This document shows positions 23,479-24,419 of a stretch of 34,152 nucleotides of DNA, in pieces. Numbering within the stretch: position 1 is the first letter of the stretch; each line of letters opens with the position of its first letter. The stretch spans positions 117,346 to 151,497 of the forward strand of contig NZ_KE384331.1 of the NCBI RefSeq assembly GCF_000425225.1, given 5' to 3'. Below the pieces are notes generated by a model, which made no database searches, was not told where the DNA came from, and saw only the letters and a program-made list of their open reading frames with translations. The position numbers and the translations under genes are program-made. This stretch comes from Pontibacillus marinus BH030004 = DSM 16465. GTDB lineage: Bacteria > Bacillota > Bacilli > Bacillales > BH030062.

Positions 23479-23506
23479 ATTATTCCAACGTAGCTCAGTG
23501 GTAGAG
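23479..23506 (+). repeat. Duplicated 5' end of tRNA-Asn (partial tRNA)
   Basis: These 28 bases are identical to 23658-23685. They hold the 5' acceptor strand and D-arm of tRNA-Asn up to GAG of the D-stem (tRNA part 23484-23506). The anticodon arm and T-arm are absent, so it cannot make a tRNA. It abuts the element at 23507. Confidence 0.9.
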
Positions 23507-23657
23507 GATCCGTAAACATCATTGAAGAGACATCAATGTAGGATCTGCGAGGAGCAGCCCATCATCTAGCAGAGTAAGCATGGGTCGTGACGAGCATAAA
23601 AGGAATAACAACTTGAGTAGTCATCTGACTCTCAACAAACATTGGTCTTCATTTTAT
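23507..23657 (+). other. Unidentified tRNA-associated element, copy 1
   Basis: This is a 151-bp element between the two tRNA-Asn 5' ends. Its first ~100 bases are nearly the same as those of copy 2 at 24185. Hairpin 1 pairs GATCC (23507-23511) with GGATC (23541-23545) around an inner CATTG/CAATG stem (23520-23524 with 23534-23538). Hairpin 2 pairs GCCCAT (23557-23562) with ATGGGT (23580-23585). The last 50 bases diverge from copy 2. There is no ORF and no similarity I know to rRNA or tRNA. It could be an insertion that duplicated its tRNA target, or a structured spacer RNA released by RNase P. Confidence 0.7.
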
Positions 23658-23662
23658 ATTAT

Positions 23663-23737
23663 TCCAACGTAGCTCAGTGGTAGAGCTATCGGCTGTTAAC
23701 CGATCGGTCGCAGGTTCGAATCCTGCCGTTGGAGCCA
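23663..23737 (+). tRNA. tRNA-Asn (GTT)
   Basis: The full cloverleaf is present: acceptor TCCAACG/CGTTGGA, D-stem GCTC/GAGC, anticodon stem ATCGG/CCGAT with loop CTGTTAA, T-arm GCAGG-TTCGAAT-CCTGC, discriminator G and encoded CCA. It is the first tRNA of the operon. From the D-stem to the T-loop it matches the tRNA-Ile2 at 23937 except for the anticodon. Confidence 0.97.
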
Positions 23738-23738
23738 T

Positions 23739-23815
23739 GGCGGCGTAGCTCAGCTGGCGAGAGCGTACGGTTCATACCCGTGAGGTCGGGGGTTCGATCC
23801 CCTCCGCCGCCACCA
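23739..23815 (+). tRNA. tRNA-Met (CAT), elongator type
   Basis: Acceptor GGCGGCG/CGCCGCC, loop TTCATAC, discriminator A and encoded CCA. It has a normal base-paired acceptor end and lacks the three G-C pairs of an initiator anticodon stem, so it is the elongator. Confidence 0.92.
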
Positions 23816-23852
23816 TTACATAATCATATCATGATGGATCCTTAACTAATAT

Positions 23853-23929
23853 GGCGATTGTGGCGAAGTGGTTAACGCACCGGATTGTGGCTCCGGCATT
23901 CGAGGGTTCGATTCCCTTCAATCGCCCCA
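23853..23929 (+). tRNA. tRNA-His (GTG)
   Basis: Loop TTGTGGC between CCGGA and TCCGG gives anticodon GTG. The extra 5' G (G-1) at 23853 faces C73, the His identity pair, and CCA is encoded. Confidence 0.96.
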
Positions 23930-23936
23930 TATAATA

Positions 23937-24013
23937 GGACCCTTAGCTCAGCTGGTTAGAGCTATCGGCTCATAACCGATCGGTCGCAGGTTCAAGTCCT
24001 GCAGGGTCCACCA
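23937..24013 (+). tRNA. tRNA-Ile2 (CAT, to be modified to lysidine)
   Basis: Acceptor GGACCCT/AGGGTCC, anticodon loop CTCATAA, discriminator A, encoded CCA. The GGACC acceptor is that of Bacillus tRNA-Ile2, whose C34 is changed to lysidine by TilS so that it reads AUA. An alternative label is a second Met tRNA, which is less likely. Confidence 0.82.
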
Positions 24014-24022
24014 TCATATCTC

Positions 24023-24115
24023 GGAGGAGTACCCAAGTCTGGCTGAAGGGAGCGGTCTTGAAAACCGCCAGGAGGTTTACGCCTCGCGGGGGTTCGAATC
24101 CCTCCTCCTCCGCCA
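24023..24115 (+). tRNA. tRNA-Ser (TGA)
   Basis: A class II tRNA with a long variable arm (AGGAGGTTTACGCCTC region), anticodon loop CTTGAAA between GCGGT and ACCGC, acceptor GGAGGAG/CTCCTCC, discriminator G and encoded CCA. Confidence 0.96.
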
Positions 24116-24130
24116 TATATCTTACTTACT

Positions 24131-24157
24131 GAGAACAAGTCAGATGTTCTCTTTTTT
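24131..24157 (+). terminator. Terminator of the Asn-Met-His-Ile-Ser tRNA operon
   Basis: GAGAACA pairs with TGTTCTC (7 bp, 7-base loop) followed by six Ts. The partial tRNA-Phe repeat starts only 3 bases later. Confidence 0.85.
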
Positions 24158-24159
24158 AT

Positions 24160-24184
24160 TGGCTCGGTAGCTCAGTCGGTAGAG
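24160..24184 (+). repeat. Duplicated 5' end of tRNA-Phe (partial tRNA)
   Basis: These 25 bases are identical to 24343-24367: the 5' acceptor strand and D-arm of tRNA-Phe up to GAG of the D-stem. They join the element at 24185 at the same tRNA position as in the Asn case. Confidence 0.9.
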
Positions 24185-24342
24185 GATCCGTAAACATCGT
24201 TGTTAAAACTTCAATGTAGGATCTGCGAGGAGCAGCCCATCACCTAGTAGAATAAGCATGGGTCGTGACGAGCACAGCAAGGAAGATCATCACTGAATAG
24301 GCATCTCAATACCGCATAAAAGTAGCGGAAACTTAACGAAAA
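24185..24342 (+). other. Unidentified tRNA-associated element, copy 2
   Basis: This 158-bp element lies between the two tRNA-Phe 5' ends. It begins GATCCGTAAACATC, as copy 1 does. Hairpin 1 pairs 24185-24189 with 24219-24223, and hairpin 2 pairs 24235-24240 with 24258-24263. Stretches such as TGTAGGATCTGCGAGGAGC and AAGCATGGGTCGTGACGAGC are identical in both copies. The inner stem changes from CATTG/CAATG to CGTTG/CAATG, still pairing through G-U. Its 3' part holds CAAGGAAGATC (24278-24288), also found in repeat copy B (23023-23033). Confidence 0.7.
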
Positions 24343-24343
24343 T

Positions 24344-24419
24344 GGCTCGGTAGCTCAGTCGGTAGAGCAACGGACTGAAAATCCGTGTGTCGGCGGTTCG
24401 ATTCCGTCCCGAGCCACCA
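24344..24419 (+). tRNA. tRNA-Phe (GAA)
   Basis: Acceptor GGCTCGG/CCGAGCC, anticodon loop CTGAAAA between ACGGA and TCCGT, discriminator A, encoded CCA. It stands alone after the operon terminator and the partial tRNA plus element. No separate promoter is obvious, so its transcription (readthrough or a promoter in the element) is open. Confidence 0.96.

Follow-up and report, generated by a model that had tools for sequence, protein, structure and literature searches.

Integrase islands are kilobases in size and usually take the 3′ part of a tRNA gene, and small repeats such as BOX, RUP, REP and the Rickettsia palindromic elements are short, non-coding, foldable, multi-copy and dispersed in the genome. 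The ends of IS200/IS605-type elements contain subterminal hairpins and insert beside a short site without target duplication; to our knowledge, tRNA confinement and upstream duplication are not among the features of this group. In the parts of the Islander paper used here (PMC4383910), integrase-driven genomic islands lie in tRNA genes, the gene is restored and a displaced fragment marks the end of the element. BOX and RUP are small structured repeats of bacteria (PMC3049150, in the sections used here). The Bacillaceae-1 RNA (RF01690) is a structured RNA of Bacillaceae (PMC2864571, in the excerpt cited), and the archaeal tRNA fragments that derive from CRISPR spacers and element integration, as given in the portion of PMC9897764 used, are a different phenomenon.

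The window (the whole stretch of DNA analysed, 34,152 nucleotides) contains a tRNA cluster of Pontibacillus marinus with two units, ahead of tRNA-Asn and tRNA-Phe, which belong to a family of small modules that shares traits with the islands, the dispersed repeats, the IS200/IS605 ends and Bacillaceae-1 RNA. As in the islands, an element lies at a tRNA gene, the gene is restored and a displaced fragment marks the end, but islands carry an integrase, for which units of about 137-200 bp have no room, and in the modules it is the 5′ part that is duplicated, in many tRNA types and at many positions. The modules are short, non-coding, foldable and multi-copy like the dispersed repeats, but they are found mostly in tRNA half-copies and often as tandem units. 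With IS200/IS605 ends they share hairpins, apparent short-site insertion without target duplication and, by eye, a possible UGCGA-GAGCA pairing, whereas tRNA confinement and upstream duplication set the modules apart from that group. Bacillaceae-1 RNA is also a structured RNA beside tRNA clusters (in the window and in locus L166), although its model matched elsewhere in these two stretches and never the modules.

The two units of Pontibacillus marinus

Both units have the same order: nucleotides 1-23 or 1-24 of the tRNA, cut in both cases after ..GGTAGAG, a 90-nt core (class E1), a tail, and a second repeat with the intact gene. The features are the following (positions of the window):

23400-23428, + strand: promoter-like site (TTGACG-17-TATATT), consensus match only
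23479-23506, + strand: first copy of the 28-bp direct repeat; 23484-23506 are nucleotides 1-23 of tRNA-Asn
23507-23596, + strand: E1 core of the Asn unit, with hairpin P1 (GATCC/GGATC), hairpin P2 with two tandem G.A steps, and the end GACGAGCA
23597-23657, + strand: tail of the Asn unit; other Asn-linked copies in the genus have similar tails (by eye)
23658-23685, + strand: second copy of the 28-bp direct repeat, running into intact tRNA-Asn
23663-23737, + strand: intact tRNA-Asn(GTT)
24131-24151, + strand: terminator-like hairpin with a T run, located between tRNA-Ser and the half-copy of Phe, consensus match only
24160-24184, + strand: first copy of the 25-bp direct repeat; 24161-24184 are nucleotides 1-24 of tRNA-Phe
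24185-24274, + strand: E1 core of the Phe unit
24275-24342, + strand: tail of the Phe unit, in which a CCGC...GCGG hairpin can be read by eye
24343-24367, + strand: second copy of the 25-bp direct repeat, running into intact tRNA-Phe
24344-24419, + strand: intact tRNA-Phe(GAA)

The direct repeats, of 28 bp with a period of 179 and of 25 bp with a period of 183, are exactly as given in the initial annotation of this DNA, and the longest exact repeat in 200 base-shuffles of positions 23401-24450 was 13. Both cores start with GATCCGTAAACATC (at 23507 and 24185) and end with GACGAGCA, the common unit being the 90-nt core and a tail that corresponds to the tRNA context. The cores are identical at 81 of 90 positions and the first 100 bases at 85 of 100, for which the earlier wording, nearly identical, was a little strong; the tails (61 nt for Asn and 68 nt for Phe) look unrelated by eye. 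It had also been proposed that both units precede the first tRNA of a block, which is borne out for Asn by the promoter-like site upstream and is plausible for Phe, which comes after the terminator-like hairpin. These sites are consensus matches in numbers slightly above the shuffle means (promoter-like, 3 against 1.9; terminator-like, 2 against 1.0). In the relatives G004-G006, a stretch like the promoter-like site of the window runs directly into intact tRNA-Asn (aligned by eye).

A Bacillaceae-1 RNA (58.9 bits) is located upstream of the tRNA cluster, at 23020-23086, and a second one within the module-bearing cluster of L166 (678-745). The flanks of the window cluster, at 22500-22904 and 24707-25318, contain genes that resemble phoU and superoxide dismutase (by eye).

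A family of modules with three classes

Two further E1 copies (Asn and Phe) are present in the window genome, and its relative G002 carries four, in places that match those of the window genome by tRNA order; G007 has one, at another tRNA-Asn, and G032, from another family, has two at Phe. The element search and covariance model proposed in the initial annotation gave matches well beyond these genomes: model R1, built from nine E1 cores, had matches at E ≤ 0.01 per genome in 32 of the 397 genomes searched from the order, with about 4 chance matches expected. A later and wider model, R2, had matches in 11 of the 22 genomes from one genus, in 4 of the 9 genomes from the window's family (window genome included) and in 3 of 398 in a class-wide sample, these three being the window's own genome and two of the same order. 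A strict E1 pattern was found in 17 stretches of named genomes (Thalassobacillus, Aquisalibacillus, Aquibacillus, Tenuibacillus, Piscibacillus, Filobacillus, Halobacillus and Gottfriedia), all of which adjoin a half-copy or a tRNA, two of them ending at a contig edge before the intact tRNA; one stretch, L113, is the same contig end as L063, and the other sixteen were read individually.

Scanning for tRNA 5′ copies in the fetched loci identified modules after the copies that were not always E1, which led to the classes E2 and E3; modules of the three classes are of about 60-100 nt, non-coding and structured. The E3 consensus is ACGAGC..GCURCGAGUUG..CGACGC..GAGGAAG..CA, and model R3, built from eight sequences, had matches at E ≤ 0.001 in 137 of the 299 genomes searched from the order, with 15 candidates at most scored per genome; in four genomes with up to 150 candidates scored each it gave 33, 22, 10 and 17 matches. 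In a class-wide sample of 299 genomes, E3 was found in 9 at E ≤ 0.0001, all nine of the same order. E2 (motif ..CACCACGCGAG..GAGCGUGGGGUGA and relatives) was recognised by eye, without a model, at Asn, Phe, Lys, Thr and Arg (L057, L068, L085, L153, L167, L168, L184, L188, L218 and L238), and L101 contains a mixed module whose first hairpin is E3-like and the second E1-like. The matches of E1 and E3 in many other genomes of the order rule out a single recent local duplication in the window, a possibility that the initial annotation had raised against its own reading.

The modules gave no match in Rfam 15 at the gathering threshold (window and seven E3/E2 loci) and none at threshold in searches with E up to 10 (window 23440-23700 and eight E1 loci); the library, which we take to include T-box and group I/II intron models, gave no match of such a model to the modules in the same searches. 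One E1 query had no phage match and matched 5 plasmid records in short pieces covering at most 28%, and one strict E3 pattern gave 0 matches in viral contigs. No description of tRNA-half-copy modules was found in a full-text literature search, with most subscription papers and preprints outside its scope, which agrees with the earlier remark that no described family fits. Each of the closest known kinds misses a defining feature of the family, which is apparently undescribed and is set apart from the nearest systems partly by features taken from general background.

Position relative to tRNA genes

In most contexts examined, the module lies on the tRNA strand and in-line inside a partial 5′ copy, directly upstream of an intact gene for the same tRNA. 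In 79 of the 96 distinct E1 contexts, the module is inside a recognised partial 5′ copy of the intact tRNA that follows on the same strand. Another 6 come directly after the 3′ terminus of a complete tRNA, 4 have a tRNA nearby and a copy that is decayed or belongs to another tRNA, 1 runs off the contig and 6, all in G137, are away from tRNAs. The 128 E3 contexts comprise 98 in a recognised 5′ copy, 11 near a tRNA without a recognised copy, 1 that overlaps a tRNA call, 11 in loci without a tRNA call (seven in G015, two in G185, and L162 and L223, two loci that end soon after the module and in which the copy is visible by eye) and 7 further cases (six with a visible copy at the end of the locus, and one that is the first unit of an array). 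Both sets include tandem units and orthologues and their members are not independent. The host tRNAs are Asn, Phe, Lys, Met (initiator and elongator, by sequence), Thr, Gly, Asp, Val, Ala and Arg, and the recognised copies are of 9-32 nt, with lengths favoured per tRNA (31 nt in 19 of 21 E3 Gly copies).

A tiny element of the D arm with a duplicated 5′ part had been suggested from the window, and this anatomy fits many genomes, tRNA types and insertion points; the suggestion has to be widened, since modules are also inserted beyond the D stem, in the D loop, at the end of the D arm, in the anticodon stem or at the 3′ CCA end, and fall into three classes or more. For most contexts the tRNA link of the element holds; copies without it, the first case that the initial annotation had set against its reading, are present in three genomes, where modules lie inside other repeats: G137 (L074-L079), G015 (L192, L196, L200, L204, L208, L212 and L216) and G185 (L235 and L246), the dispersed matches read being 6 in G137, 7 of 17 in G015 and 2 among the 15 matches listed in G185. 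These modules are E1- or E3-like, and their surroundings are repeated inside each genome, with a repeat that differs among the three.

A scan for copies covered 635 tRNA contexts with 20 nt or more of upstream sequence, a further 666 with a shorter upstream stretch being excluded. It found a 5′ copy upstream in 145 and downstream in 1, and a 3′ copy upstream in 0 and downstream in 1; the two downstream cases are both tRNA-Arg in L218, where another module array follows. The 3′ duplication that, with an integrase, defines integrase islands is therefore limited to a single downstream case in these contexts. All 145 upstream copies carry a module, 136 by model match (E1 62, E3 74) and 9 by eye (E2-, E1- or E3-like), and a loose-signature version of the scan gave modules in 140 of the 145. 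The scan needs 14 nt with at most 1 mismatch and misses copies of 9-12 nt, and it covers module-selected loci, not a random sample, in which the module share means little; the asymmetry between upstream and downstream does not follow from choosing loci for modules.

This asymmetry bears on whether tandem duplication came first, that is, whether a tRNA gene was duplicated at random, the module entered either copy and the interrupted copy decayed from its 3′ end. Such an order would account for tRNA sequence that continues past some modules and for long partial copies of Phe, Gly or Arg that contain two modules, but it expects the intact gene to be upstream about half the time, against 145 upstream 5′ copies to 1 downstream, and no module-free partial 5′ copy was found among the 145, in loci chosen for modules. 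On the 145-to-1 ratio, random tandem duplication with insertion in either copy was rejected, and duplication as the first step is disfavoured and considered very unlikely. A SINE-like, tRNA-derived head was rejected because the half-copy nearly always matches the local tRNA, with L101 (a Thr half-copy before tRNA-Lys) as an exception.

RNA structure and covariation

The module has two covarying hairpins. In the E1 core, P1 (GATCC..GGATC, with an inner hairpin inside) is followed by P2, whose lower stem, UGC-GA-G-GA / GA-C-GA-GCA, contains two tandem G.A steps (read by eye). In 53 distinct E1 rows, aligned by fitting to the model so that counts lean towards it, 87.7% of cells are paired versus 73.2% in shuffles, and there are 139 both-side changes versus 51.8 (0 of 500 shuffles as high, and at most 32 when slid); pair-count and pair-type measures are weaker, with 15 and 26 of 500 shuffles as high. 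The P1 stem of G007, for example, is changed on both sides (AGACC/GGTCT), and between the tandem G.A steps most E1 rows have G-C and seven, including L053, L058 and L061, have C-G. The 77 distinct E3 rows, from an alignment with the same leaning, contain 96 both-side changes versus 36.6 in shuffles, and in the first eight E3 sequences the pair-type count was lower than in shuffles. Mispairs on the tRNA strand are more often G.U than A.C (55 versus 17 in E1, 64 versus 36 in E3). Folds of eight single sequences are unremarkable, at most mildly stable (z from +0.55 to -2.3), and the consensus structure is not the lowest-energy fold in L048 and L061.

The main rival to an insertion module is a functional tRNA-operon leader, in which half-copy and module would form a maintained regulatory or processing RNA, predicted, for instance, to rival the genuine 5′ half in pairing with the 3′ half of the tRNA or to bind a protein through its hairpins. 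This corresponds to the structured RNA carrying a tRNA 5′ half of the initial annotation, with which the covarying core, the tRNA strand and the position upstream of the tRNA agree. The excess of both-side changes in both classes, the prevalence of G.U over A.C, the strand and upstream position of the contexts with a copy, the location of the Asn unit between a promoter-like site and its tRNA and the 47 of 64 half-copies without mismatch all fit a leader, but half-copies decay at L140, L004 and L036 while the core is still recognisable, six modules follow complete tRNAs, three genomes have modules outside tRNAs, the distribution is patchy (within one genus, 11 of 22 genomes) and the folds of single sequences have only mild stability. 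Given orientation, position and fold, leader function is a possible, though less probable, explanation. A strict tRNA-switch role of the half-copy was rejected on copy decay in several loci.

The inner P1 hairpin (window 23513-23540 and 24191-24218) differs from that of G002 (L036) at about 35-45% of positions (by eye) and is apparently the fastest-changing part, most of the core being unchanged between these orthologues. Tandem units in L111 (371-625) and L090 (738-1012) are near-identical in P2 and tail and have different P1 hairpins (by eye), as if P1 had been exchanged on its own.

Relatedness of cores

Cores were compared with one element per genome and tRNA type (E1, n = 37; E3, n = 51). 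E1 cores at different tRNAs of one genome are 0.665 alike (10 pairs), those at the same tRNA in other families 0.470 (167 pairs) and other cross-family pairs 0.485; the same-tRNA value was reached in 790 of 1000 label shuffles, so that there is no same-tRNA excess. For E3, the values are 0.742 within a genome, 0.693 for the same tRNA across families and 0.665 for other cross-family pairs, with a small same-tRNA signal across families (16 of 1000 shuffles). Different-tRNA E3 pairs from different genomes of one family also reach 0.742, no less alike than pairs from one genome, and, of 23 elements, the nearest neighbour was in the same genome for 6 and at the same tRNA for 5, which does not decide between the two. 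These values suggest that E1 spread or was homogenised within lineages and that E3 fits an older, partly vertical descent. Since all four copies of the window genome have counterparts in G002, no recent movement is shown in the window genome.

How units are built and change

The units change, as indicated by tandem arrays, nested modules, a module and tail shared by isoacceptor loci, and empty sites in relatives. Tandem units are found in L085, L090, L099, L111, L195, L211 and L177, the last with eight units of 155 bp, and two modules occur in one copy in L057/L068/L085, L185, L188, L219 and L238. In G757, one module and its tail are present at two Lys loci (isoacceptors) with differing outer flanks. 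By eye, G001 matches the outer flank of the G007 insertion and G004-G006 provide the empty site for the window.

Past the core, the tRNA sequence resumes for at least 2 nt in 39 of 64 E1 rows, at least 3 in 15 and at least 5 in 4, two-nt resumptions being weak singly, since the CA after a GAG| cut may belong to the module. Longer resumptions are Lys TCTGAC (L108), Thr CAACTGAC (L187) and Lys GGTAGAGC (L195); Asn TCGGCTGTTAA resumes after E2 in L153, and beside E2 they are of 10-14 nt. Measured from the core end, the insertion point lies at 51-77 or 89-98 in 62 of 64 rows and at 154 or 156 in two loci that contain a nested E2. This variation rules out a fixed-length target duplication, and tails travel with the module in some cases. 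Borders read by eye contain neither short target duplications nor inverted ends, and the flanking repeat varies in length, so that the terminal inverted repeats and fixed short target duplication of a MITE are both missing; the variable length is compatible with a retrotransposed RNA.

The flanking repeat can extend far upstream of the tRNA (68/69 in L072, 65/65 in L091, 39/39 in L039). Such likeness need not mean youth, because G307 and G172 share an insertion whose flanks are locally alike in G307, and because of the G757 Lys loci. Half-copies have no mismatch in 47 of 64 rows, though flanks often differ, a combination that needs selection, gene conversion or short duplication; they are decayed in L004, L036, L066 and L140.

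Recombination alone, with an old module passed on by gene conversion and tRNA-cluster transfer and no present insertion activity, would explain the module and tail shared by the two Lys loci of G757, the insertion flanks locally evened out in G307 relative to G172 and the family-wise likeness of E3 cores. Varied insertion points in different tRNAs, together with nesting, require some non-homologous events, and recombination as the sole process seems improbable.

Origin of the modules

E1, E2 and E3 can be considered one family, of which the window features are E1 members; that they are small, probably selfish, non-autonomous insertion modules of tRNA genes is the best explanation, to which we give about an even chance. 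The module would enter a tRNA gene at a short AGC-like site by means of a putative insertion agent, and insertion would be coupled to duplication of the upstream flank and the tRNA 5′ part, leaving the intact gene downstream and the interrupted copy as a scar; later recombination through tRNA sequence may spread, multiply and even out the units. An insertion module is favoured by non-tRNA copies, by modules that follow complete tRNAs and by nesting, and also by the link to 5′ copies and its direction, the in-line position, the empty sites, the long flanking repeats, the arrays, the module and tail shared by two Lys loci, the lack of a same-tRNA excess in E1 cores and their likeness within genomes. 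The E3 same-tRNA signal and the equal values of 0.742 count against it, as do the absence of short target duplications or inverted ends at the borders (by eye), the counterparts of all four window-genome copies in G002, the mismatch-free half-copies beside differing flanks and the fact that no autonomous version of the module was seen, and the near-confinement to tRNAs is hard to explain by a target of 3-5 nt.

The modules could also be RNA-level parasites of tRNA operons, whose folded RNA would insert into pre-tRNA transcripts at the D arm, D loop, anticodon stem or CCA end, the chimeric transcript (leader, tRNA 5′ part and module) then returning to DNA. Such a return would explain the constant orientation and the joint duplication of leader and 5′ half. 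One guide segment would pair alike with the target GAGCA and with the module's own 3′ end: on paper and by eye, UGCGA, the segment that follows P1, might pair either with a GAGCA target or with the 3′ GAGCA of E1. We regard this route as unlikely.

Biological significance

If this explanation is right, close to half of the sampled genomes of the order (137 of 299 for E3) would carry a structured-RNA family that is absent from Rfam and lodged in copies of tRNA genes. Islands as a rule take the 3′ half of the tRNA gene, and the modules would mirror this rule at a far smaller scale. They would also give rise to tRNA half-genes, tandem arrays and operon leaders. Whether insertion module or leader, the result would be useful, revealing in the one case a novel way of inserting into tRNA genes and in the other an additional level of control over tRNA operons.
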